Of a stretch of 64,000 nucleotides of DNA, positions 1 through 61,385 are shown piece after piece (the first letter of the stretch is position 1; every line of letters begins with the position of its first letter). The translations under genes were made by a program, and so were the position numbers. Origin of the DNA: Agelas oroides. Taxonomy: Eukaryota; Porifera; Demospongiae; Agelasida; Agelasidae. The notes under the pieces were generated by a model. It made no database searches. It saw only the letters and a program-made list of their open reading frames with translations, and had not been told where the DNA came from. The stretch is from NCBI GenBank assembly GCA_949130485.1, contig OX422191.1:4093754-4157753 (forward strand), read 5' to 3'.

Positions 1-1270
1 AGTGTTGCAAGTGCCCACCTCACAATTTTGACAGTGCTGTGGTTTTGGCTCAGTTTTGGAGTCCATGTAACTGTTCACTATGCAAAATGTTTGTATTGGG
101 TGGTGTATGTCTGTTTTGTGTTATCATTATCACTAAACATGTAAGCATCTTGCAAGGTTTGCACACAGAGGTTCATAGCCTTGTGCATAGCACTCATCGC
201 TTACAGTATTCTAATTTATACAAATTTCATACCTTAAGAATACTGTGGACACTAACAGCCCGTTTACACTAGGCATTAGAACAGTTCCAGAACCGTTTAT
301 CGAAGCAATGTAAACACACACTGAACCGTTCTAAACTGATCCGTTCCATGCAGAACGGTTCTAAACTGATCCATTCTAAACTGATCCGTTCCGTGCAGAA
401 CGGTACTACCTCAGATAGGTGGTCTGCAACGATCCAACGGTCCAATGTACCTTGACCTTGACTCATGCAGTTAAAACAATGTGAATATAGCCATAGCAAC
501 ACCAGTGTTGATGGCAAATACAAACTAGAGTGACACGGAGGTGCTAAATTTAATAGAGGTATGGGGAGAGGAAGGTATACAACAACAGCAGCTGGAAGGA
601 GCAAAGAGAAACAAACTAGTGAGCTACAAAACACAGGCAGTGACTGGACAAAATGAAAAAACTGAAACTTGACTACAGAAGAGTGAAAGATTGACACAAA
701 ACAAGAGAGAATTGGAGCAACTGGAAATTTGCAGGCTCCTGGCCAAAATTAGTGCCTTTAACACGAGGCATAGTCGTAGCCATGTAGTCAAACAATGTAC
801 TAATCCATGGTAGACACTTCTATTATGTTGCTAGTGTAAATGGAGGCGGAACTGTTCTTAGGAACCTTTACGTGAACCAGTTTGTAACCGTTCTGTGCTA
901 ATGTAAACAGGCTGTTAGCAACAAGGGCACTTGTTTATCTGCAGCTATAGCATGTAAGTTTGAATTGGGGTGAGCACTTGTGCCAACAGTTGAAATATTC
1001 AAACACTTCGTCTGTGTAAGGACCCATTTTTGGCGAATTCTCTATGAGGATTCATGAGTGTTTTATCAGGACAATACAGTAACAGCACTGGGCACGAATT
1101 TCCACTGTCCACTTCATTGCCCAGTGGGTTTTAGTGAGTTCTAGCAATTGTGACATTCAGCACACAAATACATTGGCAATACTCCTTTGCACCATCACTT
1201 TATGTAAAGCACCTTAGTGTGAGATTATGGACATTGCAATGAGTTTGCATCTGTACATATTTATGCCCAC
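1..1270. other. Non-coding, intron of upstream transporter copy
   Basis: No exon is recognised. By alignment with 50474-51780 this is intron sequence between exons 9 and 10 of the upstream transporter copy. It contains short repeats of the type ACCGTTCTAAACTGATCCGT around 320-395 and the inverted motif pair AGCCCGTTTACACTAG (near 258) and CTAATGTAAACAGGCTGTTAG (near 899), which look like the ends of an old ~660-bp element present in both copies. Confidence 0.5.
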
Positions 1271-2553
1271 CAGTGGCGTAGCCAAGCTGGGGCACACTGG
1301 GGCATGTGCCCTAGCAACTTGAGGCTGTGCCCCACCAGTGCAGGGTGCCTACAAATTATTGGCTCTGAATGTACCGTTGTCGATCGCAAATTGGGCGCTA
1401 AAAAGGCATCGAGTTCTTCAAATTGAGCAGCGCAGTATAGCTATCTGTATCCTCAGATTAAAGAAGTCTTGTACACTGCTCTGATCTCACTGTACGCAGG
1501 TTTGTCGTAAGCTGTAAGTAGTGAAGTGACTTTACACTGCGCACGCATCCGTACAAAGGCATGGTCGAAGTGCTCCAGATTCAATGCAACCGGGTACTGG
1601 CTTATACTCAGAATGATTAAGGCGGGCTTAACTTTATTATTCGTAACACGGAAGTACGCGAGGATATTGCAATAGTTTACAGAAACTGAATGGCTGCCGA
1701 GTGTAGTGTAGTGTGTTTGTCATCCTTATTCTGACCATTAGTACTTTCTCTATAGCTTTGTTTTAGCGCTGATTATGAAGTAGGTATGTCCGAGTTTCAG
1801 AAGGGATATCACTGAGAACAAGAGCTGCGTGTTTCAGCGAGCAGAAGACAGTAGTAAAGCTCAAGTCATTTCGAGCGACAATGACCAATCGTCTTTGGTG
1901 GTTTATGCGGAACACTCACCAGCCTTGGAACCAAGATCTGATGGCTTTTCTGTGTACAGGACGAGTTGAAGTTGTTATAACCTGGTGGCATTTGTGCTGT
2001 TAATGCTGTGCTGAGAAAAACTTTTGAAAGTTAAGGACCACCCGATAAGCCACAATTTTTACCTATTTTCGATTATATGTCAACCGTAGAAAGGAAAGCT
2101 GTTTCATGCCACTTGGTTTCTGTTAGACCATGACCGGTAGTAATAGTGGCTACAGTGGCTTATCTCTCAGGCTATGTCTTCATTTCAGCTGCTGTTAATT
2201 AGTTGCCATGACAACAAATTGTTTTCATTTACAGAATTGGGGAGCATCATTGTTGTCATTGTTACAAACCCCATGTTCATACTGCCATGGGTTCATGAGA
2301 TATTTAAAGTTAAATTCACCATGTAAAAACTTGATGGGTGTATAATTTATATGTATTATCCTGCCTTAACTGTTCTGAGTAATAGCTTAAGAACCAACCT
2401 GGGGGACACAAATTTTCCACGATTTCCTGGGGGAGCATGCTCACAGACACCCCCTTCCCTCCCACGTTGCTTCTGCGTTTACAAAGAAATTCTCGCGAAC
2501 GTAGTGTGCCCATGCTGTGCCCTGGCATCGGCTCTGTCCTGGCTACGCCACTG
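1271..2553. mobile_element. hAT-type non-autonomous transposon, filled site in copy 1
   Basis: The element begins CAGTGGCGTAGCCA and ends with the inverted form TGGCTACGCCACTG, a terminal motif typical of hAT elements. It is flanked by an 8-bp target-site duplication, ATGCCCAC (1263-1270) and ATGCCTAC (2554-2561), with one mismatch. Copy 2 has the single uninterrupted target at 51781-51788. Length is 1283 bp. No intact transposase frame is seen. The element lies in the intron before exon 10 of the transporter. Shorter relatives sit at 35453-35776 and 58048-58439. Confidence 0.85.
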
Positions 2554-2631
2554 ATGCCTACCTACTATAGCGTTTGTACTTCATTCCCTCTCTCTCTCCA
2601 CCTTCTTCCTCTACACACTCCACATATGCAG

Positions 2632-5214
2632 AAGAAACCACGATGTCTTATTATATCTGGCCTGTTGGTTACTATGATTGGATGTGCATTCATTGGTCCT
2701 GCAAAGTTCATCAGTACACCGTAAGATTTCTAGTCTGTGTTCTGTGTTCAAGGCTCTAAGAAAATATCTGGCATACATGTTACCGCCATTGCTGTGGACA
2801 TAGCTGGTGATAAACACAGCTGGTGATATGTGCAATGAACGCATGCTAGAATCTGTCGGGATGTACCCTTCCACCATGTTCATGTTGACCTTGATACTTG
2901 AATTGCTTCTGGGTATAGTGAGGCAAATATCTTGTGTTCTCAACAGGAAGTTGTGGCTGTCAATTCCAGCCATAGTGGTTGGCGGAGTAGGGATACCATT
3001 TGCAGTTGTACCCACTTTTTCAGACATGAATGAGATTGCAAAGTGAGTTGAGTTGGTTATCATGTCATAGAGGGTGTAGGTTTCAGTAGTGGGAGGAGGA
3101 GGAGGAGAAACTGAGTTGGCATTATACTGTGTCAAGTGGGGAAGTAATTTTAAGTGAGTAATTATTGAATATCTATAGTTCTATGTTCATATTATGATAT
3201 GACCCACTTGCTATTTTTATATGAACTTGTTTTCGATGATTTCCAGCCGAGTAGGTCTGATACAAGTGATGTCATATACATCAACACGTTGATTCAGATG
3301 AATCGTGTTGTTCATCTAGCTCTCAACAGCCACATAAATGCACTTTGGAGATCAGGACTAGCGAAATGTCTTCAGCACTGTACAACCTCCCTAACTCATC
3401 TTGATCTTGGCCATTGAGCCTTTCTGATTCTCATATTTACGGTTTTATAGTCTTTGGAATGTTTGCTAACATAGAACAGTGACCATGTTGGGCCTAGCTC
3501 CTTGGATTTCCAGTTTCATATTAGCTGACCTGTTTTGTTTAATGTTCATACAGGACAATACATGCAACAGAAGCAGATGTTGCAAGTACTCTCTCCGGGA
3601 TTTTCATTGGAGGTATTTCAGGAGGGTAAGCTTACCAATATACCATGTGATTGCTAATTTTTCATGGGCACAAATTTGCAAAATGGGCCAAAAATCTGGG
3701 TATTGAAAATTTCAACAGTTTTGTTTTTTCACAGTTAATGAGTCCAGAACCTGAATTTCTGATCAGTAAAGCATATTAGCTATAACATGTGTTAGCTAGC
3801 TTAATGGTGAAATGCTAAACCCTGCACTAAGAAGGTGGAGAGCCTGGTGCATTTCTCATGTGCATGATGTCAATGGTGGACACGAGGTAGGCATGACTGA
3901 ATTGCAATGTGCATATAGACATTCATGAAGTACACCCATTCAGCTTAGAGCTTGTGATTACAGCATGCAAACACACGAATCAGCATGACGAAATGAAGTT
4001 ACCTCTCCACTGTAGCTAGCTTTTTGATTGACTTCAGCACTAACTGTCAAAGGCAAACTTGCTGATATAGGCTTATACTGGAGTCAGGATAGCTAGAGAG
4101 TTTGAATCAGCCTAGCTTGAAATTTGGTTCAATAACAATGAGTGAAGGAAATAATTGCAGTTGTATTTGTTTTACAAATGGCTCTCTACTAACAGAATAA
4201 ATGCCTGCATAAACTACGGTATATATAATTGAATTTGACCTTTATCTAGTGTGTATATGTATAGGTGATCCTTGTGTGGATCAACCACGGTCTGCATGGC
4301 TTCTCTGAAGTTGACTGCATTAATGCCATCATTGCCATTTCCTACATTGCTTACAAGCAATTGTGCAAACAAAATGATGCAAAGAATGAACAGTAGCATA
4401 AAATCACTGCTCAAACCTGACCCCATCATTGTATACAGAGTATTTTATCAACCTAGTCACAACAATGTTGCTGTCAACAGCACAGTTTGCCATAGTATCA
4501 TGCATTGTGCATGCTATCCATATGCATGCTCATGCTCATTGTGTACCTGTTTTCAGAGAGAGTTTAGGAGCAATCATTGGAGGATTTCTGGATTACTCAG
4601 TGGGCTTCCAGTCACTAGGAGCAGTAAGATTCATCATGTGGTGTTTATAATGAGTATCTTCTGAAGTATAAAATAGCTTTGTAGTAGGGTGGTGACCAGT
4701 GAATGATTATTGTGTACTCATTTCCAGTAAAATGTATCTGAGTTTATTGCATGTGGCAGTCTCATTTAGATATTGAAGATTATTCCACCGCATATTTCGA
4801 TCACATTGCCATGTTTGAAGTGCCGTATCGCTGAACTTCCGTTATGGGCAGGGCTAATACATCCTTCGTAAACTTGTTAGATATTCACGCATCTACGAAG
4901 CACCTGCCTTTAATGTAAGTGCAGCCATATGGTGCTTCAAATACGGCGAAGCGATCAAAATATGCGGTGGAATAATCTTCGATTTCTACACAGGACTATC
5001 ACATATTAGTAATTTACTCTTTCTATCCCTACAGATAATCAGTCTAGCTCTCCTGATCTGCGTAAGTTGTGCAAAATCTTATTCAGTCCTGTATATGAAT
5101 AGTGAAACAGTCTTACTACCTTCACTGCAGGCTCTAGTATTGGGGACTGTAACTGTGGTTCAGAGAGTTTGGAAATCATGCTATAAGAACAGGAATACTA
5201 AAGAAGAAATTTAA
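2632..5214 (+). CDS. SLC18B1-like: SLC18B1-like MFS transporter, 3' part (exons 10-15), upstream paralog
   Basis: Six exons can be joined with matching phases: 2632-2720, 2947-3042, 3554-3625, 4557-4623, 5035-5061 (27-bp micro-exon) and 5131-5214, which ends in TAA. They encode the C-terminal half of a major facilitator superfamily carrier of the SLC18B1 type. Visible features are a hydrophobic helix starting KKPRCLII, a second helix containing AIVVGGVGIPFAVVPTF, the stretch ADVASTLSGIFIGG, the loop GGFLDYSVGF, a last helix around ALVLGTVTVV, and a basic tail. In this family the protein is a 12-helix vesicular carrier for polyamines; the substrate here is inferred. The 5' half lies outside the window. 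Exon lengths equal those of the 40672-54698 gene except that exon 11 (2947-3042) exists only here. Each exon is flanked by AG and GT. Confidence 0.8.
3199..3417 (+). other. Leucine-rich-repeat-like frame within an intron
   Basis: A 72-codon frame in the intron between exons 11 and 12 of the upstream transporter copy reads NSHINALWRSGLAKCLQHC then SLTHLDLGH. This resembles one repeat of an NLR-type leucine-rich region. The matching place in copy 2 (about 52595-52890) is rearranged and its frame is not kept. It is probably a gene-fragment relic or chance. Confidence 0.2.
4265..4396 (+). other. Second terminal-exon-like frame between exons 12 and 13
   Basis: After an AG at 4263-4264 a phase-0 frame of 44 codons runs to TAG. 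It ends in a hydrophobic stretch (AIIAISYIAY) followed by a charged tail (KQLCKQNDAKNEQ), much like the layout of true terminal exon 15. The matching frame in copy 2 (53743-53880) differs by a 6-bp indel, so the frame is kept. It does not fit the phase of exon 12, which leaves two bases, so it cannot be spliced simply after it. It could be an alternative last exon used with another donor, or a relic of an earlier gene end. Confidence 0.3.
4774..4981. repeat. Foldback MITE in the intron before exon 14 (copy 1)
   Basis: The left arm GAAGATTATTCCACCGCATA is the inverted complement of the right arm ending GCGGTGGAATAATCTTC, with further pairing inward. The same element is present at 54258-54471 in copy 2, so insertion came before the duplication. 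Confidence 0.7.
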
Positions 5215-6911
5215 ATGTCATAATGAGTCGATCACCAGGCACATTTAGCCATAAGGTTATTATTCATTCTGTATTTATTTATTTATTTCAAATGGTAACT
5301 ATACCCCAAGTGAAAGAATTGTCGACTGGACTAACCTGCTCATAAGAAACCATTTACAGTATCATACTTCAGTCTTCATACCAGGCCAGTGATAACGGAA
5401 TGGAGTCCCAACATAGTTACTCTACTCTTAGTTGATACTTGTTGGTTGTTTTGATTGAGCTACTGCACATCAACAAAATGCAGTGTTGTTTTGCTATAGC
5501 TTTACCTTTTATAGTTTGACCAACAATTTAGTCCTTTTGTAGTTTGATTAACTAAAATTTAAAGGATCACAATAACCAAGACAACTATAACTAAAATTAA
5601 TACATTTTAGTAAGGGTTTTTGATGTGGTGAAACCTGGAAACACAAGTCAGCAGTCAAGGTCAAAGTACAATGCCATGCAGTGTGAAGGGTTGAAATGCT
5701 TTATGAATATTTAATGAAATGATGTCAAACCCCGCCCAACTTTCCGTTTTCTGTACTGCAAGCGATGGAAAGCTGCGCGGGACCTGGGAACGAGGCTAGA
5801 GTTAGCTTAGTCTATGCAGATTAATTTGTGACTCAATCACACCCACTTGTCAATTAACTTTTAGTGGTCCGGGTTCTCAGGCAATATGAATGCCCGTCCA
5901 TATCACCACAACTCATGAAGTAAAATGAATGGCTTATTTGCTATACCACACATGCATGCAGTTTTCTGTCCTCTGTGATGACTTGGGGGCAATCCATTAG
6001 CTTATTGGCAGCCTACCAAGTCTCCGGCGTGAGTCTCACGCTTTGCAGGTCATTCTCACGCTCTCACACTCAGATACACAAATCTCATGCCTCTTCAACA
6101 CGTGCCAGTGCCTGTTCGTACAAGGAACGCTGTGCAAAGCTAGAACTGAACATAATGAAAGGCGCTGCTCTACAGAGATATCCACCGTCCTGATCGTCTA
6201 ATTTTACCAACTCATACAGTTTGCGAATTTTGCGAGCAGTATTGCCAGGATGCAACGAGAGGGCTTCCTGACCGCAGGAAATTTCTAATTTTTATTGCGT
6301 AACGAATGTAGATTGTGTGCTTTCATAGTGGTCTCTGAATGCCTCAGAAGCATGCTCAAAAGGTCTACCTTTTCTTTGGGAGCATGCTCCCAAATCCTCC
6401 TACAATGCTGTTCGCTACACACACAGCCACCCACATGTTACGTCCCCACTTTCCTTCTTCAATCTCTGGATCTGCCCATGGCAATCACTCACGCAGTCTC
6501 ACTTCTGAAGCTCCCTCCACCTTGGCAGCTATGTTATTGGTTTTCAAACACTCGAAGATGAAGGCTGGGTGCTTAGTCAAGCTTTGTATAGCTAGGTCAT
6601 AACATATTTATGTTTGTGGTGAGTTTATGGGTTTTACCTAAGTATTACGAATGATGACCAACTCTCTGATTATTAAAAGCGGTCTCATCTCAACATTGCT
6701 ATACTGCTGTGCTGTAGGTTATTATTGGCACCATCTCTCTAGCATTGCATGTGTAGTTACTCTCCAATTCCTCTTTCTTTATGCATATTAAACGTAAAGG
6801 ACACCTGAATAGCAAAAGCTTACTAATGTGATACATGTGCCCATAGAAATAAACTATAAGGAATGATTATAGTTCTTAAAACAGAAAGATATGGTGCAGA
6901 AGTAATAGCAC
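5215..6911. other. Non-coding downstream of transporter copy 1
   Basis: This stretch holds a partial TAGCCTCG-family foldback (about 5732-5798, left end eroded; the complete homolog is 56810-56898). It also holds a hAT-relic end near 6440-6480 (CAATCTCTGGATCTGCCCATG), which is also present in copy 2. A short frame with several cysteines (CEFCEQYC) at about 6180-6300 is kept in both copies but has no recognisable family. No exon is called. Confidence 0.4.
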
Positions 6912-6915
6912 TTAA

Positions 6916-7935
6916 GGTGGCGGTGAAGTCTTTCGGCGGAGGTTAACGAAAACATAAACATGGGTTACAGTCAGGACCAGGGTTACTCCTAGTTTCAGGG
7001 TTAGGGTTTGCTTTAGGGCAATCTTGCTTTGCCTAATTTTAAAAAGGGTTTTAGTAGCTCATTAATATATTCATGAACCCAAAATTGCCACTGGATGGAC
7101 GCATCCACACACTCACTGTAGGTAGCGTCCTAACCACCAACGTATCTCAAATCAGTCTTTGCCAGCTTTTGTTCAGAGCTACTCTCAAATTCAGGCTAGA
7201 CTCATGTTTGTCGCTACTCTTGGAATTGATAACTTTGACTGCACCAAAATGAATGCACATTTCAAAAAATTTCACAGCTTGTCTACGGGAGGGGCTCATT
7301 CACGAGTGGAAGCAAGCATTACTAGCCCCACCTCTCCCCCTTATGTCGCTAAACAACTCACGGCTCTGTTCCACACACAACCACCGTTCAGCTCCCTTGG
7401 GTCACCAGAGCGTAGCACCAACGATAAATTGCGTATTCTAGTTAAAGCCCAGCCCAGCACTCGAAGCACCTGGCCACGGTCACCAACTAGGCTAGGCATA
7501 CGGCCGCGAGACCTGGGCCTACTCAACAAATACAGTCTTGGCCACTGTGGCCTTTCTGCTGCTTCTAGACACAAGCTTGCTTTCACAAGCAGGCAGTACG
7601 CACTACTCACAGCTACTGACACTACAGCACTCTACTAAACTCCTCCCTTTTTTTTATTTTTTATTTTATTTATTTTAAGTCGATCTAAGCTTATCTTCAA
7701 AGTTCCGACTACCACATGAGGGGTTCCGCCAGGCCACATCTTAACTAACTTAATTATAAACTGATTATTGGATGTCAATGCCGACAGGAAATGGGGAAAA
7801 TCCCCAATTTTACGGACATTGAACGGATGAAGACTCCCAAAACGGACTGTGCGCTAAAAGTTTACAAGGACAAAGAATTCTATCAGCTTGGATTCCAGGT
7901 TTGTTGACCTTGAAAACACAGGGTTCCCTGCCACC
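6916..7935. mobile_element. TTAA-target DNA element, filled site in copy 1
   Basis: The 1020-bp insertion begins GGTGGC and ends GCCACC and is flanked on each side by TTAA (6912-6915 and 7936-7939). Copy 2 has one uninterrupted TTAA at 58522-58525 in identical flanking sequence. TTAA duplication is known for the piggyBac and Kolobok superfamilies. No transposase is recognised. A 159-codon frame (7159-7638) and its antisense shadow look like chance. Confidence 0.75.
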
Positions 7936-9499
7936 TTAAATGTGGGGAAAAGGAGTGCTGAAAATAATTAGTCTGCTGATTAAATTTAGTACTAGATTTA
8001 CCATTGCAAGTGGTTCCAATATAGTCACGTTAGCAAATATCCAGCTGCATGTGTATGAACCGAGAGTGTTGATGCAGATTTGGTCACAGTGATGTGTGCC
8101 ATCAGCACACTCATCAATATGAAGTGCTCAGAACCAGGGTGCATGGGCTAGCCAAAAACAAATCACATCACAGGTAACATCTGTAGGTTCACATCCTTTC
8201 CTAGATCCCTCCTATACGACACACCTGCCACAGGATATAGGTATGATACCTGATGTTGGTCATATCCATACACCAAAAAGTACGCAAACAAGGTAGGTAT
8301 GATATATATATGAAGTGCTCAGAACCAGAGTTCATAGGCTAGCCAAAAACAAATCACATCCTGCTTCCTTGGCGGGAATAGGATTGAACTCCATGGTCAT
8401 GACTGCACAGTAAATATTTGGACTGTTCCAGCTTTGGGACTCAATGTAGGTCTAACAAGCTAAGGTGTACACTTAGTCCTGCATAGTGGACACTCGGTCT
8501 CCACGTGAACATCCCACTTTCTAGAATATGGAGTTGTCAATATTCGGAGCAAAATGCAAGTAGATTCTTGTAGTATGATCCTTCAGGTTCACTGGACTAG
8601 ATTCACTAGAACAATAAGATGATGCAATGTAGTGACAGGTTACATGGAGAAACAACCAGATACTCTAAAATAGAGTAGTCTCGCAGCCCTTCACAACGTG
8701 CGTATTTGGCGGAGTCAAGTGCAGAAACGAGTGCTGAATGCAGCTGATGCATGGCTGGCAACTCTGAGAAAAAAAAAGCAAAGAAGTCAGTCCACCGTAG
8801 AAGCCAAGAGAGCAAGAAGAGAACAAGAATAGTTCAAAAGTAGAAAGCACATACTGGAGAGTCTCCACAAGCCAGGTATTAGGCTCACTCTTCACGTTAC
8901 CTTTCTTTTGTTCTTCCTCTTTGGGGCTCCCCCTCACTAAACCAGCAATCGGACACCTGCTCCGCGCGCCCCAACCGCATGCGCAATACGCTTAGACACA
9001 CTGGCGCATAGCGCGGCGCGAGGCATCTCATACGCTTGTAGTCCGCCTGATTTCGAGGTACAGTAAACTGTACGAAAATACTGAGATCTGCGCGTAGACT
9101 GTTGTACTTGTCTGAAGCGATATGTGGGGGTTGCTGCGCTCTATTGCCAAGCCACAGCCGTGGAAAGGGGTAGGTTGAAGTTTCACTGTCGTGTGACGAC
9201 GTGTTACTACTTATAGACCGTAGACTATAGCCTATCATACATGGGTGACTTCTTGCGTTCATGTAGCTACTGTAGGTCTATATGCAGGTGTCCTCCCCCA
9301 GTTGTAACTCCTTTAATGCTCGTTTATCTTTAGTGCATTGCCTATAAATTTTTTACACTGTTGCCGGGATTTGCATTCCTGAATGTCTAATCCCAGAAAT
9401 TATGTCTATTAAATAGTCTAAATGTCTAATCCCAAAATGTCTAATGTTCTGTAATAATAATGTTACTTAAGCTTTTGTCTTGTCTTCCACAGATACCGT

Positions 9500-9535
9500 C
9501 CATATCTCCCTGTCACACACAACAGGGAGATATGG
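9500..9535. repeat. 13-bp-stem hairpin (copy 1)
   Basis: CCATATCTCCCTG and CAGGGAGATATGG form a perfect 13-bp stem around a 10-base loop. Copy 2 (about 60129-60171) keeps the stem, but its loop is 7 bases longer. The function is unknown. Confidence 0.5.
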
Positions 9536-10690
9536 GGTATTTGTAACGGATATACAGGGGGATGGTACACAGGATTGTGCCCCAGGTATGGGAGCTTGTT
9601 CCATTAGGACACGTCAATTCCCCTCCTTTCCCCCATCAAGCCCGTAGGGCATACCACTGATGCACATGGTATTCAATGTCATTAAAACTTGGATAAAAAT
9701 AAAGAAGGTTGAGTTTTAACAGTCTTGCTCTCAGACCGTATTTTTAGCAGTGTTCTAGAGAAGCCTTGATAGGTGCATTAGTCTCAAAAGCCAAGAGTAG
9801 GTCTGGCTCAGGAGACTATAGCTTGTGGTGATGCACCCCCAAAGTGTTTTGGAATTAGCTACATGCTGGAAGATTACTTCTGAGGCTGTATATTTGGAGC
9901 CAAATTGCCATTCCTTCAGTCCTTATTAGGGTTTTGATTTGCTACACGTCTGCATGGAGATAATGACCATGGACTCTCTGTAACGTACTGCATATGCTGC
10001 ATGCAGTCAGGGTGTGGGTAATGCTACTCATAGATTGCTTATTTACTTCATGGTAGTTTAATCTTGACAAGCAGACTCTGATCCACTGGATGTCCATATA
10101 TATAGAGATACAGAATGTGCTGGCCAGCCATATAGCATATGAGCAAACTACAGGTCTCTTTTTGTAAGCAGTTGTTCCTATCACTTTATTCTAGAGAGTG
10201 CTCACTCCTTGATCACTTCAAAGACTTCCACAACTACCTCACTGCTTTTTTGTGTGCCACCCTATTAAAATGTGATTGTTCATATAGTTTCATACTATTG
10301 GCATTTCCATTCAGATAACATGCAGTTTTAATAATTGTAGCTGCCATGTTCATTGAGGTCATGTCAAAGTGTGTTGCAAGAGTATCTACTCTTGCTGTGT
10401 ACCCCGCCAAGTAACTGCATGAGCACAGCTAGGTGGACAGAAGGCACTAATGTTGGGTCAGAAACATTAAAGTTCATGTAATGTGGTGTCAAGTTGATCT
10501 CATGGCAAACAGATTTTGCAAGAACTGACCACATGACAAGTTGACCCCATGCATGAGGGTTGGTCTGGTGGTGACCGACCTTGTGGGAATATGAAGAGTA
10601 TTGTTAGTCTGGTTCTGAGCTCTCGACAAAGAGTGCAAGGAAGAGACCGAGAACTAGGCTACAGAGTAGTTTTTTTCGTGTGATTTTGCC

Positions 10691-10743
10691 AAGGGTGCAT
10701 CAACTCCGGCACATCGAACCGCTGAAGGCGTTGATGCGCCCTT
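10691..10743. repeat. Hairpin with covarying stem (copy 1)
   Basis: The arms AAGGGTGCATCAAC (10691-10704) and GTTGATGCGCCCTT (10730-10743) pair, with one G-T wobble. Copy 2 has AAGGGCGCATCGAC and GTCGATGCGCCCTT (61333-61346 and 61372-61385). One pair changed from G-C to A-T on both sides. Outer arms GTGTGA and TCACAC extend the structure beyond a small internal loop. Confidence 0.55.
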
Positions 10744-12591
10744 GATTTCACACACATACTTTATCTCCTAATGTGGTTGCTATGTCATGGTCTGGCGGCA
10801 CCTTGTAACTAATCACAATTATATGGAAAACCACTACATGGTTGTTTTACGCACCTTGGTTAAACCTTGTTGCAGACATTTGCTACTTCAAGTTGGCAAT
10901 CAACTAACCATTGTTTGGACGCCAATTCTCTGAGTAGCTTGTAAACTGCTACTACTGCTTTGCCTCAAGCCATGAAGGCTTTCTGTTCCAGACTTTGTTG
11001 AAAAATCCCTCCTAGGCAAGGAAATCCCAGGTGTGGGGTTCATGAATGTACCCGAGTGTATAGTTGTAGTCACCTTGTGTGGGCAGATCAAAGAAGCCAC
11101 ACACACTTTAAGGAAGCCAGATCCTGCCACGCTTGTGAACCTCACTTTGAACAGGTGTGATAGGTAGCCTCTTCCCAGGCCACTCCCAGATTTTATCTAT
11201 ATAGCAGCTGTGGAGAAAAATCGGGCTGGTACCATTACTATAGTCTCGTGCCCAGACAACACCCAGCTCTTGCAAAGAGAAGGGGTCTGGTGTCACAAGT
11301 CCAAATCTTTGGGCTAGCTCCAGAAACATGAAGTGACCAATGAAATCACAGAGCGGCGTTCACTAGAATATTGTGCAAGTGAGAGTAAGTACTTCAATCG
11401 GTCGCGATGTTATGAAATTCATTATTCACACCGATCAATTTGTAATCCTATACACTAACAATTACAAGGCTTCAATACAAGCTCATGTGCACAAAATATC
11501 ATACTCCAGAGTTGGACAGCAAATAGGTCTGTGTGTAATTGGCATTGGAGACGACTACAGAGGCGCCAATTATGCATGCGTGCATGTAGTCTCGTTCCCA
11601 GACCCTCAGTACGATAAACGCAACGAGACTAGCGTGTTGTCTTTCAATGTCTTGATCTCCAGCTACAAGTAAGCTGTAGACACTTGCTAAATACCAGTGT
11701 GTAGCTAAGTCCTCTCAGTAAAACACATCCAAGAATAAGGAAAATCTTCCTAAAAATAAGTTACTTCCAGATAAATTAGTGGGCGGGGCTTCAAGTGAAA
11801 CAATATCAGTGATCGCCTAGTTGCTTGCTTTTGTGATGTCTTGCTTGAAATCTGAGTAAAAAAGAACCATCATGCGTTTCTGCTACTGCTCAGTTAGCCA
11901 CTGGCTATTCTCTGCCTCATTTACTGTGCTGTGCACACAATGACAACTACTTCCGGTCATTCCGGGTTTTGAAGAAGACCGTATTCACTTTAGTGTTACC
12001 TTGGCAGAACGGCTTCTCATATCCCTTTACAAAAATCTTTAGCTGCAGTACGCAAGTGGCATATATGTTGCTATTAGTGCAGCATATGTGCAGGTTGTTT
12101 ATATGTGCACTATAAGAGTGAACTGCACACATCCTTACTGCACACGTGCTGCATACATTTTGGCTGCATGGGTGTGAGTCACAACTATGCTACACAGAAG
12201 TGCTATGCATGCATTCAATTGCATGCATTCAATTGCATGCATGCTGCTCATACTTGGTTTACATGTGTGCTTTAAACACATTTCGCACATAAAAACACTC
12301 TGTACATATAAACCGTAGTGTCCCGTTAATACGCCCCCCATTTTGTCATTATACATATGTGGCTTGAAATAGGGATCACATAACTTTAGTCTACAACCGG
12401 TTTTAGTGGTTTTGGAGGTTTTATGCTGGTTGTATATGGGTTGTGTGCTGGCACAGGTGATGGTGATCTGTGATCTGTGCATTATTGAAGTTGTTTGTGT
12501 TACTAAAGTTTTGTGATCTGTACATAGTTTTTAGTTTTGTGATCTGTGCATAGTTTTTAGGTTTGTGATCTGGAGGTTTTAGGAGTTTTTT

Positions 12592-12750
12592 GAGGTTGTC
12601 TGTGGGTTATGGAGGTTTTAGAGGTTGTATAGGTTTTATGAGGTTGTCTGTGGGTTGTGGAGGTTTTAGAGGTTGTATAGGTTTTTTGAGGTTGTCTGTG
12701 GGTTATGGAGGTTTTAGGGGTTGTATAGGTTTTTTGAGGTTGTCTGGGAC
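12592..12750. repeat. 48-bp tandem repeat
   Basis: The motif GAGGTTGTCTG recurs at 12592, 12640, 12688 and 12736, exactly 48 bases apart. It is G/T rich on the + strand and partly complementary to the adjacent minisatellite. Confidence 0.85.
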
Positions 12751-12783
12751 CAATCGTATTGAACTGTTTAATGAAAACATGTT

Positions 12784-13135
12784 CTAAAACTTCAGAAACC
12801 TCTAAAACCTCTAAAACTTCAGAAACCTCTAAAACCTCTAAAACCTCTAAAACCTCTGAAACCTCTAAAACCTCTAAAACCTCCGAAACCTCTAAAACCT
12901 CTGAAACTTCTAAAACCTCAGAAACCTCTAAAACCTCAGAAACCACTAAAACCTCTGAAACCTCTAAAACCTCAGAAACCTCTAAAACCTCTGAAACTTC
13001 TAAAACCTCAGAAACCTCTAAAACCTCAGAAACCACTAAAACCTCTAAAACCTCGGACACCTCTAAAACCTCTGAAACTTCTAAAGCCTCAGAAACCACT
13101 AAAACCTCTAAAACCTCGGACACCTCAGAAACCAC
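12784..13135. repeat. AAACCTCT-type minisatellite
   Basis: Short 9-base units of the form AAAACCTCT, GAAACCTCT or AAAACCTCA are repeated. They translate as Thr-Ser-Lys or Thr-Ser-Glu repeats on + and Glu-Val-Ser/Leu repeats on -, so the open frames on both strands are an effect of the repeat and not genes. Confidence 0.9.
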
Positions 13136-13489
13136 TGCGACCCATTCACAACCTCTCTACAACCTCAGAAACCTAAAACCACAGAATTCTGACTGTGTAG
13201 AACCTTTTACTTGAACTGCCTTGTACCACTCATCTTAAGACAAGAATATGGAGGGGTAGCTCGTCACTGCGCACGTACATTTCATAGCTTCTTACTCCAA
13301 AACCCAGAAAACCACTAAAACTGGTTGTTTAAAAATTAATTCGATCCCTATAATAAGCCAGGTATACATTTTGTACACTATACATCCCGCCTAAAGTGGG
13401 GGGGGGGGGGGGCTTATATTCGAGGATGCAATTAGTCTCGACTATAAGCCCCCCCCTATGAAATCAATGCCTTTCACTATCAACTAACT

Positions 13490-15194
13490 ATGGCGACGAC
13501 TTTCAGGATCGAGAGTACTGTTCGCGGACATCACGTTTACAAAGCTGCGTGGTCTCCCTACATCGGAGAAGAGCTGCCAGTTCAACGCGAGGTCAATAAC
13601 ATTCATGACGACTTCGCTGTAGCTGTCCTCAAGAACGGCAACACTGTCGGTCATGTACCACGGGAAATTTCCAGAGTCTGCTGGTATTTCTTGCACAAGA
13701 TAGGGTTGCCAATGTGAAAAATCAACCTCCGGATTTCGAACAACTTATACTATGCGCACGAAGAGCTCATTCATGCTTAAACAATCGCACACTAAAACTT
13801 CTCCTCCAAGCGTATATTGCATGCAAACTGCACCGAAACTGCTTTACGTCGCTAAGGGGTTAAAGTACGGGTGGTATCATGATGATGATGTAATATGATT
13901 TAGCACGGTGGTTTTGCCAAAACCTTGCTGGAGTGAAGGAGTTTCAAATTTGCAAATTTGAGTCACTGAGCTCGCTGTGCAGAGCCAGTGGAGCATTTTC
14001 TTTCTTGTGCGTGAGTAAGAAATTGCTGGTACGCTGAGGATTAGCATTTATTGCAGATAAGCAGTTGGAATGAAACAATCCCTCCTGGTTCACTTTTGTG
14101 AAGGTTGGTCCAAATAATATATAAAACAGGTTTGGTATTGATTGAAGGTTCTTTGCCATCTGGCTAAAAATGCAAACGTAACAAGGCTCTGGATGAGGCA
14201 AAGCGATTCAGGACCACCTTTTCAAACTTTTATGAGTAACTAGTTTTGGGTACAGTAAAATTCGTCATTTAATTCTGAATAGAACAGGGTTTTTTGCACC
14301 TAAATCGGTGCAGTAAGAGTGGAGATATATATTTTTGAAGTATTTTTGCAGTTAACTACACCAGGTTTGGTAACTTTCTAAGATAAAATTCTCAGAAGTG
14401 GTTGATTACAAATAAAAAATGATATCTCCACTTCTACAGCACCAATTTCGATAAAACAAAGACCATTACATTTAGAATTGAATGACAAATGTAGCTGTAA
14501 TCAAAATTTACAACTCATCAAAGACTAAAAAGTTATCACTGACCTGACCAATGCTAATGTCACAATTTCAATGGTGTTAGCCAGATGGCAAAGACCCTTC
14601 AATCACTACCAAACTTGATTTATATGTTATTTGGACCAAGCCTCACAAAAATGAACTAGGAGGGATTGTTTCATTCTAACTACTTACCTGCAATAAATGC
14701 TAATTCTCAGAGTTCCAGCAATTTCTTACTCACCTACAACACAGAAAAAGCTCCACTGCCTTTGCACAGTGACCTCAGTGACTTAATTTTCGCAAATTTG
14801 AAATTCCTACATCCCAGCAAGGTTTTGGCTTGTTAAATTGCATTACATCATCATGATGATACCACCCGTACTTTAACCCCTTAGCCACGTAAAGCAGTTT
14901 CGGTGCAGTTTGCATGCAATATACGGTTGGGGGAGAAGTTTTAGTGTGCGATTGTTTAAGCATCAGTGAGCTCTTTATGCGCATGGTACGAGTTGTTCGA
15001 AATCCGGAGGTTGATTTTTCACATTGGTAACCCTACACAAGAGTGGCAGCGAGATGACTTGCATCGTCAATGGTGACAGAAGACGTTCTGAAGTTGATGG
15101 GAAAGGACTCGTGGTTCCGTGCGTGTACATCTTCAGAGGGGAACAAAAACACCTTGACAGACTGATAAACCTGTTTGCTAAACTAGCAGCTTAA
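13490..15194 (+). pseudogene. HIRAN-domain protein frame, split by a nested element
   Basis: The frame starts at ATG 13490. Its first part (to 13700) reads RGHHVYKAAW, then GEELPVQREVNNIHDDFAVAV and VGHVPREISRVCWYFLH, which fits the HIRAN domain, a small domain known to bind DNA 3' ends in HLTF-type proteins. A 1335-bp foldback element interrupts it. The frame resumes at 15043 in phase with CIVNGDRRR, GLVVPCVYIFRG and a short tail, and ends TAA at 15194. The two coding parts total 363 nt, or 120 residues plus stop. Here it is a stand-alone HIRAN protein with no helicase or nuclease attached. It is carried inside the 12312-15431 transposon, so it may serve the element and not the host. Confidence 0.7.
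13701..15035. mobile_element. Nested foldback element inside the HIRAN frame
   Basis: Long inverted arms start TAGGGTTGCCAATGTG and end CACATTGGTAACCCTA; pairing continues for several hundred bases on each side (for example the arms around 13770-13935 and 14815-14975). It is flanked by a 7-bp direct repeat CACAAGA (13694-13700 and 15036-15042). Removing the element and one repeat restores the HIRAN frame, which confirms the boundaries. Confidence 0.85.
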
Positions 15195-15431
15195 AACTTG
15201 GAACATCTAACCGGCTTTTCTAAAAGCCACAAAACTTACAAAAGATTCACCGACTACTATAGTCTTACTGAACGCACTTGCAACGTATAGTAAGCACGTG
15301 TAGTTTTGATGTTCCAGAAGACGCTCACCGGGGGGCGTTATAACGAGTCAAACTACCCTGTGCAGGAACTTTGGCGGAAAAGAGGGGGGGGGCGTATTTT
15401 CGAAGGGGGCGTATTAGCGGGACACTACGGT

Positions 15432-16118
15432 ATTTGCACTTGCTGCATACATGTAAACTGATCATGATTGCATGACTAAACTTTGTGACTGGGTTAGATA
15501 CATCACACAACATTACTAGGCAACACATACAAATGATGTTCATATGTCTCTTGCACAGTGGTATTGCATAGGGATAATTGCATCTCTCCTTGGGGTGTGG
15601 CCTTGCACATTCCAGAAGGAGAGGAGTCAAATGCTTCTGAGGGAGAGATGTCCAAGGGATTGGAGATTCAGAAGAATTAGAGGTCCAAGGGTTCAGTGGG
15701 AACAGGTTTAGTGAAGAGGTCTAAGTATTTAAATTGAGGCATCCAGAGATTCTGAGAGGCGTTTTCAAGTACATGTAGTTACCCCAGCACATTCTACACC
15801 ATCCAGTTCATTATTTGTGTGCTTGAGTTCAGCCAGTTGCTCTCCAGGAACTAAAGCTCTCCACTGCCTTGTCGTTTCTGCATACTAATGGTACATGTAC
15901 AGAAATGTATAGAACATTCACACACATGTATTATTTCAGTGTTATGACAAATTAGTCTTGTTCCCTTGTCTGGTTCCATGACAAAGGATAAATGTGGAAA
16001 AAATGAAATGACCTTGACGTGGAATCCTTTTCAAACATTTCTTGTCAGCCGTTTCGCCAGCGACCGGAAGTGCAATAGGAGTGGTCATTTTTTAATTTTT
16101 GGCGTAAACACGAATACG
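15432..16118. other. Non-coding, end of copy 1 block
   Basis: Shared with the last bases of the window (to 15685), then unique. It contains the motif CTCCTTGGGGTGTGGCCTTG, related to the inverted repeat at 42088-42189. No exon is recognised. Confidence 0.4.
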
Positions 16119-49600: not shown

Positions 49601-52600
49601 GGCTTATAACTATTTATCATGCCCCTCACAATTCCACCAAAGAAGCAAAGAGCTACCACAGACAAGTGCTCCTTACGTCTTAATGAGGTCTGATGGAATT
49701 GTGAGCGTGATGATGGATGGTGAGGAGTCTCTTCATAGTATTCATGCACCGGTTCAGTGAACCCTGAAACTCCGGTTATTTTAACTCTTTACCGACCAAT
49801 GACGCCGTTCGAGTACTTACCTGCCTTTGCGTGTTTCCCCCAGAAGGTAGTGGTTTAGTACGCACTGCACACACGTGTAACAGTATTCATTACACCCACC
49901 GGATGCTAATCGTGCACATTTTAATTGAAACTAGTACTTCAATGAGGCGGAAGTTGAACGTAGCGTAGTGTGTCGTGCTACCGCAATCGACCGGGCCGTG
50001 TTTGTCGCGACCGATCTCAAGAAGTATACAAGCTACGAAGATGCGATAAAAAAGCAATATATAACTAAATGAAAGCTTTAACTTCGCTACAGATCTCAAA
50101 GGAAGCAGAACTGTAACATCAAAGTTAGAGACGCCAGAACAGACTGAAGGTAGCAACTTCTGGTATAAAAAGTTCGGGTTTATCTCCAAGCTTGTTTTTT
50201 AATGGTAAGCTTCAAAACTACAGCGAGGCTAGGCAAACCCTTTCCAATGTTTTTGACCAGAAGTCTGTAGCTGGTTTGCAACTGGAGATATGACACGGAG
50301 TATACAGCATGTTGTTTAGGCCGCTTCCGGAATTCCTGTGTGGTCATTCATGTAATATTGCAATAAGTAGTTTGTGCAGTACCACAGCATCATTGCAGAA
50401 GAAACGTACACCCAGAGCATTTTAGCACACAATGTATGCATTGCAAACTCAGTTACTAAATATTTAGCATTAAAGTGTTGCAAGTGCCCACCTCTCAATT
50501 TTGACAGTGCTGTGGTTTTGGCTCAGTTTTGGAGTCCATGTAACTATTCACTATGCAAGTATTGGGTGGTGTATGTTTGTTTTGTGTTATCATTATCACT
50601 AAATATTTAAGCATCTTGCAAGGTTTGCGCACAGAGGTTCACAGCCTTGTGCATAGCACTCATCGCTTGCAGTATACTAATTTATACAAATTTCATACCT
50701 TAAGAATACTGTGGACACTAACAGCCCGTTTACACTAGGCATTGGAACAGTTCCAGAACCCTTTATCGAAGCAATGTAAACACACACTGAACCGTTCTAA
50801 ACTGATCCGTTCCATGCAGAACGGCACTATACCTCAGATATGTGGTCTGTACCGGTCCAGAACAGTTCCTAGTGCCAAAACCGCTGAAGTGGAACACAGT
50901 ATTAAGCATGGGGTTTGTACCTTGACCTTGCTCATGCAGTTAAAGAAATGTGAATATAGCCATAGCAACACCGGTGTTGATGGCAAATGCGAACTAGAGT
51001 GACATGGAGGTGCTAAATTTAATAAACGTATGGGGGGAGGAAGGTATACAATAGCAGCAGCTGGAAGGAGCAAAGAGAAACAAATATATATCTGAGAAAC
51101 TAGCTAGTGAAGTACAAAACACAGGCAGTTACTAGACAGCTGAGCAGTGCAGAGCAAAGACGAAAAAACTGAAATTTGACAACAGAAAAGTGTAAGATTG
51201 ACACAAAACAAGAGAGAATAGGAACAACTGGAAATTTGCAGGCTCCTGGCCAAAATTAGTGCCTTTAAACACGAAGCATAGCCGTAGCCATGTTGTCAAA
51301 CAATATACCAATCCAGTATCATGTGTGGTAGACACACCTATTATGGTGGCTAGTGTAAACGGAGGCAGAACGGTTCTTAAGAATCATTCCGTGAACCAGT
51401 TTGTAACTGTTCTATGCTAATGTAAGCATGCCGTTAGCAACAAGGGCACTTGTTTATCGCAGCTATAGCATGTAAGTTTGAATTGGGGTGAGCACTTGTG
51501 CCAACAGTAGAAATATTCAAACACTTTGTCTGTGTAAGGACCCATTTTTGGCGAATTCTCTATGAGGATTCATGAGTGTTTTATCAGGACAATACAGTAA
51601 CAGCACTGGGCACGAATTTCCACTGTCCACTTCAATGCCCAGTGGGTTTTAGTGAGTTCTAGCAATTGTGACATTCATCACACAAATACATTGGCAATAC
51701 TCCTTTGCACCATCACTTTATGTAAAGCACCTTAGCATGAGATTATGGACATTGCAATGAGTTTGCATCTGTAAATATTTATGCCTACCTACTATAGCTT
51801 TTGTACTTCATTCCCTCCTCCCTCCACCTTCCTCTACACACACACACCACACTCCACATATGCAGAAGAAACCACGATTTCTTATTATATCTGGCTTGTT
51901 GGTTACTATGATTGGATGTGCATTCATTGGTCCTGCAAAGTTCATCAGTACACCGTAAGATTTCTAGTCTGTGTCCTGTGTGATCAAGGGCCAAGGAAAA
52001 TATCCGGCATACATGTTACCGCCAGTGCTGTGGACATAGGTGGTGATAAGCACAGCTGGTGATATGTGCAAATGAACGCATGCTAGAATCTCTCAGAATC
52101 TCTTCCACCATGTTCATGTTGTTGACTTTGAGGTTCTTTTTCTGCTAATTTCTGTCCAATGTTTGAAGCTTTTCTAGAACCATAGATACAGTCAGCAATC
52201 AATCGATCGTTGGCAACCCCCGCCCACCAATGTAAAGCGCTTGGAACCGACGAATCCGTGAGAGGGTTTTGCTGAGGTGAGAGGGTTGTGCTAATTCCTA
52301 GATATGTTTTACCAGAGGCCTTGCCTAAATTTCGTTTTTTTATCGTGTGTCGATAGCTTGCTTACAATCGGAGATAGACACTGGCAAAAAGTAGCCGCTA
52401 TGTTCGAAAAAGCCGATTCAGCAAATTCACTTCCGTTTGCATGGAACAGGTGCCTTTTCATGTGGGGTGCCTATTTTTATATGGGTGCTTACAAATGCTA
52501 TATGGTGGTTGTTATCAAAATGGGGGTGCCTATATTCATGGGGTGCTTATTTTGTGTGGGTGCTTAGTATCTTGATTTTACCCGATATGACTCACTTGCT

Positions 52601-54698
52601 ATTTTTATATGAACTTGTTTTTGATGATTTCCAGCTGAGTAGGTCTGATAGTCGTATACATCAACACGTACTGCATTCCATCATTTCAACAGTGATTTCT
52701 TGGCATCAGAAGCTGCTAGATTCATTCGGTTATTTTTGATCATGCTAAACCTGCCTACTTGATTCGGATGAATTGTGCTGTTCATCTAGCCCTCAACAGC
52801 CACATAAATGCACTTTGGAGATCACAAAATTTTATTGGAGTAGCGAAATGTCTTCAGCACTGTACAACCTCCTTGATCTTGGCCATTGAGCCTTTCTGAT
52901 TCTCATATTTCAGTTTCTTTGGAATGTTTGCTAACATAGCACAGTGACCATGTTGGGCCTAGCTCTTTGGATTTCCACTTTCATATTAGCTGACCTGTTT
53001 TGTTTAATGTTCATACAGGACAATACATGCAACAGAAGCAGATGTTGCAAGTACTCTCTCCGGGATTTTCATTGGAGGTATTTCAGGAGGGTAAGCTTAC
53101 CAATACACCATGTGATTGTTAATTTCTCATGGGCACAAATTTGCAAAACGGGCCAAAAATCTGGGTATTGCAAAATTTCAACAGTTTGGTTTTTTCACAG
53201 TTAATGAGTCCAGAACCTGAATTTCTGATCAGTAAAGCATATCAGCTATAACATGTGTTAGCTAGCTTAATGGTGAAAGGCTAAAACCTGCACTAAGAAG
53301 GTGGAGAGCCTGGTGCATTTCTCATGGGCATGATGTCAATGGTGGACACGAGGCAGACATGACTGAATTGCAGTGTGCATGTAGACATTCATGGAAGTAC
53401 ACCCATTCAGCTTAGAGCTTGTGATTAGAGCATGCAAACACATGAATCATTATGACGAAAAAAAACAACAAAAAGCACATTTTGCTACCTCTCCACTGTA
53501 GCTAGCTTTTTGATTGACTTCAGCACTAGCTGTCAAAGGCAAACTTGCTGACAGGCTTATACTGTAGTCAGGATAGCTAGAGAGTTTGAATCAGCCCTAG
53601 CTTGAAATTTGGTTCAATAGCAGTGAGTGAAGGAAATAATTGCAGTTGTATTTTTGTTACAGATGGCTCTCTGCTAACAATAAATGCTACCAGCTGTATG
53701 GTATATAATTGAATTTGACCTTTATCTAGTGTGTTTTTGTAGGTGATCCTTGTGTGGATCAACCACGGTCTGCATGGCTTCTCTGAAGTTGACTGCATTA
53801 CATACAATGGGCTCATTGCCATTTCCTACATTGCTTACAAGCAATTGTGCAAACAAAATGATGCAAAGAATGAACAGTAGCATAAAATCACTGCTCAAAC
53901 CTGACCCCATCATTGTATACAGAGTATTTTATCAACCTATATAGTCACAACAATGTTGCTATCAAAGTACAGCACAGTTTGCCATAATATCATGCATTGT
54001 GCATGCTATCCACATGCACGCTCATGCTCATTGTGTACCTGTTTTCAGAGAGAGTTTAGGAGCAATCATTGGAGGAATTCTGGATTACTCAGTGGGCTTC
54101 CAGTCACTAGGAGCAGTAAGATTCATCATGCGGTGTTTATAATGAGTTTCTTCTGAAGTATAAAATAGCTTTGTAGTAGGGTGGTGACCAGTGAATGATT
54201 ATTGTGTACTCATTTCCAGTAAAGTGTATCTGCATGTGACAGTCTCATTTAGATATTGAAAATTTTTCCACCACATATTTCAATCACATCGCCATGTTTG
54301 AAGTGCCGTATCGCTGAACTTCCGTTATGGGCAGGGCTAATACATACTTCGTAAACTTGTTAGATATTCACGCATCTACGAAGCACCTGCCCTTAATGTA
54401 AGTGCAGCCATATGGTGCTTCGGATACGGCGAAGCGATAAAAATATGCGGCAGAATAATCTTCGATTTCTACACAGGACTATCACATATTAGTAACTTTA
54501 CTCTTTCTATCCCTACAGATAATCAGTCTAGCTCTCCTGATCTGCGTAAGTTGTGCAAAATCTTATTCAGTCCTGTATATGAATAGTGAAACAGTCTTAC
54601 TACCTTCAATGCAGGCTCTAGTATTGGGGACTGTAACTGTGGTTCAGAGAGTTTGGAAATCATGCTATAAGAACAGGAATACTAAGGAAGAAATTTAA
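40672..54698 (+). CDS. SLC18B1-like: SLC18B1-like MFS transporter, complete except for one missing exon
   Basis: The family comprises 12-helix vesicular carriers; SLC18B1 is linked to polyamine uptake. ATG is at 40672. Exons: 40672-40917, 41659-41754, 41813-41886, 43843-43990, 45154-45222, 47276-47363, 47471-47545, 47694-47767, 49227-49325, 51866-51954, 53019-53090, 54049-54115, 54519-54545, 54615-54698 (TAA). Phases match throughout and total 1308 nt, 435 residues. Marks include a polar N-tail, helix 1 ending SMIGPFYPIE, the loop SPLIGYF, LLRTVEGIGTAM in helix 4, ALGPAIGGGL, and the half-repeat loop GRLTDK. The intron after 47545 uses a GC donor (AG/GCAAGT), the only choice that keeps the frame. 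Compared with the paralog at 2632-5214, the 96-bp exon between 51954 and 53019 is absent. Splicing stays in frame, but one helix of about 32 residues is lost, so transport may be impaired. Confidence 0.85.
41077..41455. mobile_element. Relative of the 55126-56632 element in intron 1
   Basis: Inverted arms GTTGGAAGCTAGTAATTAG and TAATTACCAGCTTCCAAC frame an inner palindrome (GAGCTCTAGATCG and GGTCTAGAGC). It matches the 55126-56632 element but lacks the nested TAGCGATGTC insert, giving an empty site near 41365 (GCAGCCCGTGTGATTAC). Confidence 0.65.
42088..42270. repeat. Two adjacent inverted repeats
   Basis: 42088-42189 pairs AATAGTTATATCCCTCC with GGAGGGATATAACTATT and includes TGGTCTTGCACATT/AATGTGCAAGACCA. 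42192-42270 pairs AACCTGTTACCTAGGCAACA with TGTTGCCTAGGTAACAGGTT. Both are in the intron between exons 3 and 4. Confidence 0.7.
42882..42962. repeat. Purine-rich tract
   Basis: An imperfect GGAGGAAGG/GGAGGAAAAAGG repeat. It produces long frames by composition only. Confidence 0.7.
43760..43845. repeat. 20-bp tandem repeat before exon 4
   Basis: The unit CACATGCACATGTATACACA is repeated about four times, directly upstream of the acceptor AG at 43841-43842, where a polypyrimidine tract would be expected. Confidence 0.8.
44173..44769. mobile_element. TAGCCTCG-family MITE, ~0.6-kb form (intron)
   Basis: Ends TAGAGTTGTTCCCAGGCTTT and AGAGCCTGGGAATGAGGCTA are inverted. The interior matches 16676-17254 along most of its length. 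It lies in the intron between exons 4 and 5. Confidence 0.8.
46450..46501. repeat. Short TAGTCTCG-type hairpin
   Basis: TTCTCGTTCCCAGACCAA and TTGGTCTGGGAACGAGACTA form a foldback of about 50 bp in the intron between exons 5 and 6. Confidence 0.7.
46960..47184. repeat. Foldback inverted repeat
   Basis: GATGTAGGGATGACCTGCCG (left) pairs with the right arm ending GGCATGTCATCCCTACATC, with good pairing inward (AAGTATGCAAACAAGGTAG and CTACCGTGTTTGCATACTT). Confidence 0.7.
49420..49771. repeat. MITE-like inverted repeat
   Basis: The left arm GTTTCAAGGTTCATTGAACTGG and right arm CCGGTTCAGTGAACCCTGAAAC pair, as do internal AATTCCACCAA-type parts. It lies just downstream of the exon ending 49325. 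Confidence 0.65.
52120..52590. other. Replacement of the exon-11 region in copy 2
   Basis: Homology to copy 1 stops near 52125 (CATGTTCATGTTG) and resumes near 52590 (CTTGCTATTTTTATATGAAC). About 460 bases of unrelated sequence replace copy 1 bases about 2887-3205, which include exon 11. The inserted part has repeated GGGGTGCCTAT/GGGTGCTTA motifs near 52460-52570, suggesting a transposon end. Confidence 0.75.
53743..53880 (+). other. Second terminal-exon-like frame (copy 2)
   Basis: Homolog of 4265-4396: 46 codons from an AG to TAG, 6 bases longer than copy 1 and still open. It shows the same hydrophobic-plus-charged tail, LIAISYIAYKQLCKQNDAK. Confidence 0.3.
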
Positions 54699-55125
54699 AT
54701 GTCATAATGAGTCGATCACCAGGCACATTTAGCCATAAGGTTATTATTTATTCTGTATTTATTTCAAATGGTAACTAAAAACTATACCCCAAGTGAAAGA
54801 ATTGTCGACTGGACTAACCTGCTCATAAGAAACCATTTAGAGTATCATACTTCAGTCTTCATACCAGGTCAGTGATAACAGAATGGAGTCCCAACATAGT
54901 TACTCTACTCTTAGTTGATGCTTGTTGGTTGTTTTGATTGAGCTACTGCACATCAACAAAATGCAGTGTTGTTTTGCTATAGCTTTACCTTTTGTAGTTT
55001 GACCAACAATTTTTAGTCCTTTTGTAGTTTGACCAACAATTTTAGTCCTTTTGTAGTTTGACCAACAATTTTAGTCTTTTTGTGGTTTGATTAACTAAAA
55101 TTTAAAGGATCACAATAACCAAGAC

Positions 55126-56632: not shown

Positions 56633-56809
56633 AACCAAGACAACTGTAACTAAAATTAATACATTTTAGTAGGGTTTTTGAGTTTTAGTAAAATAGTGGT
56701 GAAACCTGGAAACAAAAGTCAGCAGTCGAGGTCAAAGTACAATGCCAGAGCGAAGGGTTGAAATTCTTTATGAATATTTAGTGAGAGATGATGTCAAACC
56801 GGTTGTATC

Positions 56810-56898
56810 TAGCCTCGTTCCCGGCCCCCGCCCAGCTTTCTGTTTTCCGTACTGCATGCAAGCGACGGAAAGCTGCACAGGGCGTGGGAACGAGGCTA
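56810..56898. mobile_element. TAGCCTCG hairpin element (copy 2, complete)
   Basis: TAGCCTCGTTCCCGGCCCCC to the inverted right end GGGAACGAGGCTA, with inner arms GCCCAGCTTTC/GAAAGCTGC. The copy 1 homolog near 5732-5798 has lost its left end. Confidence 0.7.
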
Positions 56899-61332: not shown

Positions 61333-61385
61333 AAGGGCGCATCGACTCCGGCACATCGAACCGCTGAAGGCGTCGATGCGCCCTT
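61333..61385. repeat. Hairpin with covarying stem (copy 2)
   Basis: AAGGGCGCATCGAC and GTCGATGCGCCCTT form a perfect 14-bp stem. See the copy 1 partner at 10691-10743 for the paired substitution. Confidence 0.6.

Follow-up and report, generated by a model that had tools for sequence, protein, structure and literature searches.

A putative two-gene pogo-type transposon with a HIRAN-domain gene in the sponge Agelas oroides

Introduction

Pogo elements have been described as transposons of 1.2-5.2 kb that use TA as the target in most families and encode transposases of 300-977 residues, while Passer transposases, nearly all of them DD35D, carry HTH_Tnp_Tc5 with or without BrkDBD (PMC7386202, in the sections available to us). 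The ciliate TBE and Tec elements are also of Tc1/mariner type and have additional frames (PMC7325037, likewise in its available sections). In this study, a 64,000-nucleotide stretch of the genome of the sponge Agelas oroides (contig OX422191.1, positions 4,093,754 to 4,157,753; hereafter the window) was analyzed, together with the transposon family to which an insertion within it, carrying a frame for a HIRAN domain, appears to belong. The insertion had been predicted from the letters of the window alone to be a transposon bounded by terminal inverted repeats (TIRs), with a 120-residue HIRAN frame and no recognisable transposase. Harbinger transposons likewise combine a transposase with a small DNA-binding helper, the product of a second, Myb-like gene, but belong to another transposase superfamily, use a different target site, and have a helper of a different fold. 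Animal genes including CENP-B derive from pogo-type transposases.

Results

A complete element with two genes

As read from the sequence, a pogo-type transposon carries the HIRAN frame as its conserved second gene. The complete element, L109 (C3:1982219-1984591; locus positions 220-2592), is 2373 bp long, has perfect 26-bp TIRs matching those of the window insertion, and is flanked by TA on both sides. The transposase (451 residues) reads from its minus strand and the HIRAN protein (120 residues) from its plus strand; the genes lie head to head, with their starts about 184 bp apart. Matches to DDE_1 (E 4.2e-28), HTH_Tnp_Tc5 (6.5e-13), and BrkDBD (1.1e-6) were detected in the transposase (450 of 451 residues scanned), and its best solved relative is CENP-B (E 2.9e-4). 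Its catalytic spacing is DD36D, with 36 residues between the second and third D as the three were picked by eye. The HIRAN protein matches Pfam PF08797 with an E-value of 2.1e-8 (34.3 bits, above the gathering cut-off of 24.7).

Pieces of another frame sit in some of the elements with the same ends (e.g., L068), and a search with the L068 frame gave two 455-residue open frames adjoining HIRAN genes. The genome (259 Mb, 141 contigs) was also searched with the L109 transposase, and 94 of 176 candidates were scored. Two full-length transposases were present among them, on C3 and C5 (100 and 99%, no stops). A third close copy, on C2, is internally deleted (83-96% identity), and decayed relatives, such as those at 51-63%, were also found. 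The transposase starts 183-184 bp from the HIRAN start, head to head, in all three close copies (C2, C3, and C5). The reported lack of a transposase is thus true of the window copy, which has lost it, and not of the element class; the longer relative with a transposase that the original prediction had proposed to look for is L109.

Other pogo-like transposase frames are about 22-36% identical, and several of these are open over 428 to approximately 680 residues (e.g., G000:C6:123846-124262). In L109, a motif GGGGC(G/T)TAT followed by TTCGA was observed at 284-340 and 2551-2592; the motif occurs once with an inverted partner near the left end and twice at the right end. These are possible binding sites for the transposase or HIRAN. 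A similar layout was seen by eye in L105, an element of family 3 (see below).

Purifying selection between subfamilies

A second subfamily was recognized, with the ends CCGTAGTGTCCCGCA in most listed places; a wider pattern gave 163 matches, and its reversed control gave 3. One of its elements, L103 with L110 (C19), has near-identical ends, with one base changed in the right end. An internal deletion has left it with HIRAN and, head to head with that gene, an N-terminal part of the transposase. Another member, L076, has a diverged HIRAN sharing 63% identity over 64 residues with many copies of the first family. The L103 HIRAN scores 18.8 bits with Pfam, below the PF08797 cut-off.

The transposase parts of subfamilies 1 and 2 are identical at 54 of 97 residues. 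When the majority HIRAN sequence of the first subfamily was compared with that of L103, 75 of 117 residues were identical at a DNA identity of 63%; the differences by codon position were 29, 22, and 60%, and synonymous sites were saturated. Neutral simulations at that level of divergence (2000 runs, 54 of them stop-free) gave 41.9 identical residues on average and never more than 55. The observed identity therefore indicates that HIRAN was under purifying selection during the divergence of the two subfamilies.

A third family (L104 and L105; ends CCGTATTGCC, TA) has a HIRAN relative placed by 46% identity to L109 and by genome search. Sites reading CCGTAGTGTCCCGGG were noted at L101 position 100 and L102 position 83, with 5 among the listed places of the subfamily-end search. 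No exact second end was found within about 2.9 kb of the L101 and L102 sites. Perhaps the CCGTAGTGTCCCGGG sites represent another repeat family.

Copies, ends, and target site

Exact matches to the 14-base end of the element number 690 in the genome (355 forward and 335 reverse); the reversed control gave 0, so the ends are far beyond chance. Loci were taken from about 100 listed end places, all on contig C1. From these, a set of 45 elements was built: the window copy and 44 in which both exact ends could be paired. Places showing a single exact end were excluded. The target dinucleotides were TA/TA in 42 elements, TA/CA in two, and AA/TA in the window copy. The target duplication is TA, which corrects the original prediction. 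An element of 2749 bp with the same TIRs (L065, C1:13028898-13031646) contains tandem repeats and, toward the left end, what looks like the decayed remnant of a HIRAN; no transposase frame was seen in it, both readings being by eye.

A protein search with an intact 120-residue HIRAN gave 1095 first-look candidates, and the best 150, which were scored, showed 95-100% identity. HIRAN copies were tallied over 70 loci picked by their ends (L001-L030 and L061-L100), with 30 loci picked by protein score (L031-L060) excluded. Fifty distinct HIRAN matches were present, 32 of them full length. An ATG and freedom from indels and stops were found in 18 of these 32; of the remaining 14, some carry indels whose lengths are multiples of three and could have kept an open frame. 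The 32 copies carry 74 substitutions, of which 21 are synonymous against 21.7 expected. Substitution density in 38 paired elements was 89/12969 in the HIRAN frame vs 53/5742 in the 3' non-coding part (P 0.10). The HIRAN of the young short copies drifts neutrally, and these copies behave as passengers. The test of purifying selection suggested in the original prediction thus had a divided outcome, positive between the two subfamilies and negative among young copies.

Origin of the short copies

The short HIRAN-only copies map onto L109 as internal deletions. Class A, in which L109 position 159 is joined to 1770, accounts for 19 of the 45 elements (20 counting L063, whose site also has junction A). 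Class B (113 joined to 1746) accounts for 12, including the window copy, and class C (170 joined to 1757) for three. Four elements have the class B junction plus an extra internal deletion removing part of HIRAN, three (L072, L073, and L083) have deletions cutting into the HIRAN start, and three are members of the other subfamily. Genome-wide, the junctions (<=2 mismatches) were matched 137 (A), 73 (B), and 13 (C) times, 223 in all; reversed controls gave 0.

Classes A, B, and C have lost the transposase along with almost the entire spacer, and the deletion stops 9-33 bp upstream of the HIRAN start. In a post hoc test that took breakpoints to be uniformly distributed, the chance that the three main classes would all end there is about 2e-4. 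Copies with a damaged HIRAN exist, so the frame is dispensable in cis. A TATA-like stretch noticed by eye in the L109 spacer is absent from the three classes, and the short-copy HIRAN is therefore probably not expressed from a promoter of its own; with its native upstream region lost, it is probably a passenger.

The insertion in the window

The features of the insertion are listed in Table 1. It is bounded by the inverted ends CCGTAGTGTCCCG...CGGGACACTACGG, as read from the sequence. The window contains two copies of a roughly 12-kb segment, lying about 50 kb apart (1-12300 and 50500-64000; 94-99% identity in the listed blocks), and the HIRAN element is present in copy 1 only. The second copy has the same flanks without the insertion, and the empty site there, on which the original prediction rested, was recovered, as were the TIR boundaries. 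Small indels separate the joined flanks from the empty site, and the left TA reads AA. A short palindromic element (CCTCGTTCCCAGGCC...) lies at approximately 63597-63698 in copy 2 and is missing from copy 1; a similar sequence was found in L007.

The window copy matches the intact copy L015, whose HIRAN gives a Pfam PF08797 E-value of 9e-8, in three blocks separated by two extra stretches. Without its two nested insertions it is like the ordinary genomic copies of about 740 bp. Its class B junction lies at C9:4107205 (window 13452). The predicted 120-residue HIRAN frame is right for the family and not for this copy, in which insertion 2 splits the frame after codon 70; the 75 residues that are open still match PF08797 (E 5.2e-7). 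Nested insertion 1 contains a 9-bp minisatellite (12557-13135, about 36 register copies) that reads as an open low-complexity frame on either strand. Immunoglobulin I-set (8.9e-11 and 1.5e-12) and fibronectin type III (1.1e-6) domains are encoded at loci close to elements of this family.

Table 1. Features of the HIRAN-bearing insertion and its empty site (window coordinates).
Feature	Position	Strand	Remarks
Putative pogo-type element, non-autonomous; class B deletion derivative interrupted by two nested insertions	12313..15430	.	Ends, TA flanks, three-block match to L015
Left TIR	12313..12338	+	Perfect 26 bp in complete element L109
Right TIR	15405..15430	-	
Left target dinucleotide	12311..12312	.	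AA here, TA in most copies
Right target dinucleotide	15431..15432	.	TA
Nested insertion 1	~12347..13358 (exact ends approximate)	.	~1.0 kb, 9-bp minisatellite inside, flanks CATTTTGT
HIRAN codons 1-70	13490..13699	+	Frame open to residue 75, then stop within insertion 2
Nested insertion 2, fold-back element	13701..15035	.	1335 bp, ends TAGGGTTRCC, flanks CACAAGA
HIRAN codons 71-120 and stop	15042..15194	+	Last 50 codons 15042-15191
Empty TA target in second copy of duplicated segment	63738..63739 (good to a few bases)	.	

Comparison with described elements

The pogo features examined were found: TA on both sides, a transposase and an element length inside the described ranges, and a DDE_1 domain whose D-D-D spacing is also in the described range. 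With the Passer family (IS630-Tc1-mariner group), as far as it is set out in the available sections of the survey, the element has in common the TA duplication, a short TIR, a length of 2.4 kb, and one DDE_1 transposase with BrkDBD and HTH_Tnp_Tc5 (PMC7386202). It differs from Passer in being DD36D, where nearly all Passer members are DD35D, and in its second, divergent HIRAN gene, the comparison being one of features and not of trees. By the features tested the element would be placed in the pogo superfamily; it is not filed as Passer, given the DD36D spacing and a placement made by features instead of a tree. The ciliate TBE and Tec elements differ in their extra proteins, which are a zinc finger protein and a recombinase with no HIRAN, and in being DD34E (PMC7325037, available sections).

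The word HIRAN is absent from the main texts of PMC7386202 and PMC7325037. No eukaryotic transposon with HIRAN was found described in the titles and abstract beginnings of the open-licence literature, and no paper in the open-licence literature searched brings HIRAN together with pogo. To our knowledge, frames of this kind are present in public sponge and coral genomes and have not been described. In viral contigs no relative was confirmed for either HIRAN (5 pattern matches) or the transposase (3 pattern matches).

Discussion

We consider it very probable that the feature in the window is a defunct, non-autonomous copy of a pogo-type transposon with two genes, of which HIRAN is the second and has been under selection. 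That HIRAN belongs to the transposon, and not to the host, is supported by the many copies between the same ends and by its pairing with a transposase in L109. Internal deletions stripped out the transposase and almost the whole spacer and spared HIRAN, giving the short copies now at hundreds of sites. From what is known of pogo biology, the transposase of full copies would act in trans on the short copies and move them by a TA-specific cut-and-paste reaction. With lower confidence, the full element would produce HIRAN as an accessory protein that binds DNA, retained by selection as an aid to the persistence of that element. Its likeliest action would be to bind DNA ends or fork structures arising in excision, integration, and repair. 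A stronger version is tentative and, on balance, doubtful: that HIRAN is a dedicated, required partner in a two-component pogo transposition system, reading DNA ends or forks, and that short copies with an intact frame spread better, as the position of the deletion ends 9-33 bp ahead of the HIRAN start codon in the three main classes might suggest.

Several results weigh against the two-gene transposon with a selected HIRAN. The evidence for selection comes mainly from one subfamily pair, and no ATG stands where one would be expected in the L103 HIRAN; among the young burst copies, selection was not seen by either substitutions or density. A full transposase of subfamily 2 was not found among the scored candidates of the genome search. 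The HIRAN relative of family 3 is without its N-terminus, and in L105 it gave no Pfam HIRAN match. The C5 transposase is known from its frame and HIRAN neighbor in the protein searches, not from TIRs, and the count of HIRAN linkage covers the close copies and subfamily 2, not the other pogo-like frames. The best solved relative of the L109 HIRAN is HLTF (E 0.003 over residues 10-74; PDB 2mzn, 5bnh, and others). It has been shown that the HLTF HIRAN holds a dinucleotide between Y72 and Y93 (PMC4666394, available sections). These positions align to A/H in L109 and L/F in L103, in a weak alignment with the first position poorly supported and the numbering done by hand. The pocket tyrosines thus appear to be replaced, which weakens the original idea that the protein recognizes 3' ends. 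The transposon HIRAN also differs from that of HLTF in standing alone, as 120 residues without a helicase or RING domain.

The same two-gene transposon could instead carry a HIRAN that acts on the host, for instance by engaging stalled forks or intermediates of breaks so that repair following excision is biased, or by countering silencing. We hold this to be a plausible account, if short of an even chance. HLTF is a fork-remodelling protein (PMC4666394, available sections), and a separate divergent gene would suit a trans-acting role, but no feature here separates host action from end handling. As judged from these data, handling of ends and steering of host forks or repair would be about equally probable as the role of HIRAN.

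It is very improbable that HIRAN is a host gene fragment captured by chance and carried without function. Neutral drift in the young copies and loss of the native upstream region in the three main short classes are what such cargo would show, but HIRAN was selected between subfamilies and is linked head to head to the transposase in every close copy and in subfamily 2. For the full element this explanation is already largely refuted. A host exon captured once, with no other copies, which the original prediction had named as its own refutation, is ruled out by the complete element, by the copy number (the proposed search by ends gave 690 end and 223 junction matches), and by the selection between subfamilies. 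Hardly credible is a separate class of HIRAN-only elements moving without a DDE transposase, a view suggested by 223 HIRAN-only junction matches against two full transposases but ruled out by the transposase domains of L109, the genome transposase search, and the short copies themselves, whose TIRs and TA are those of the two-gene element and whose sequences align to it as products of deletion.

The numerous HIRAN-only frames that the genome carries inside such ends are transposon remnants and not host genes. A conserved second gene from a domain family linked to repair would make this pogo-type transposon a way into the coupling of such elements to host DNA ends or forks, and with a complete two-gene copy whose frames are open the question of coupling becomes directly testable. 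If HIRAN is indeed a required helper with the capacity to read DNA ends or forks, the element would be a two-component system of Tc1/mariner type.

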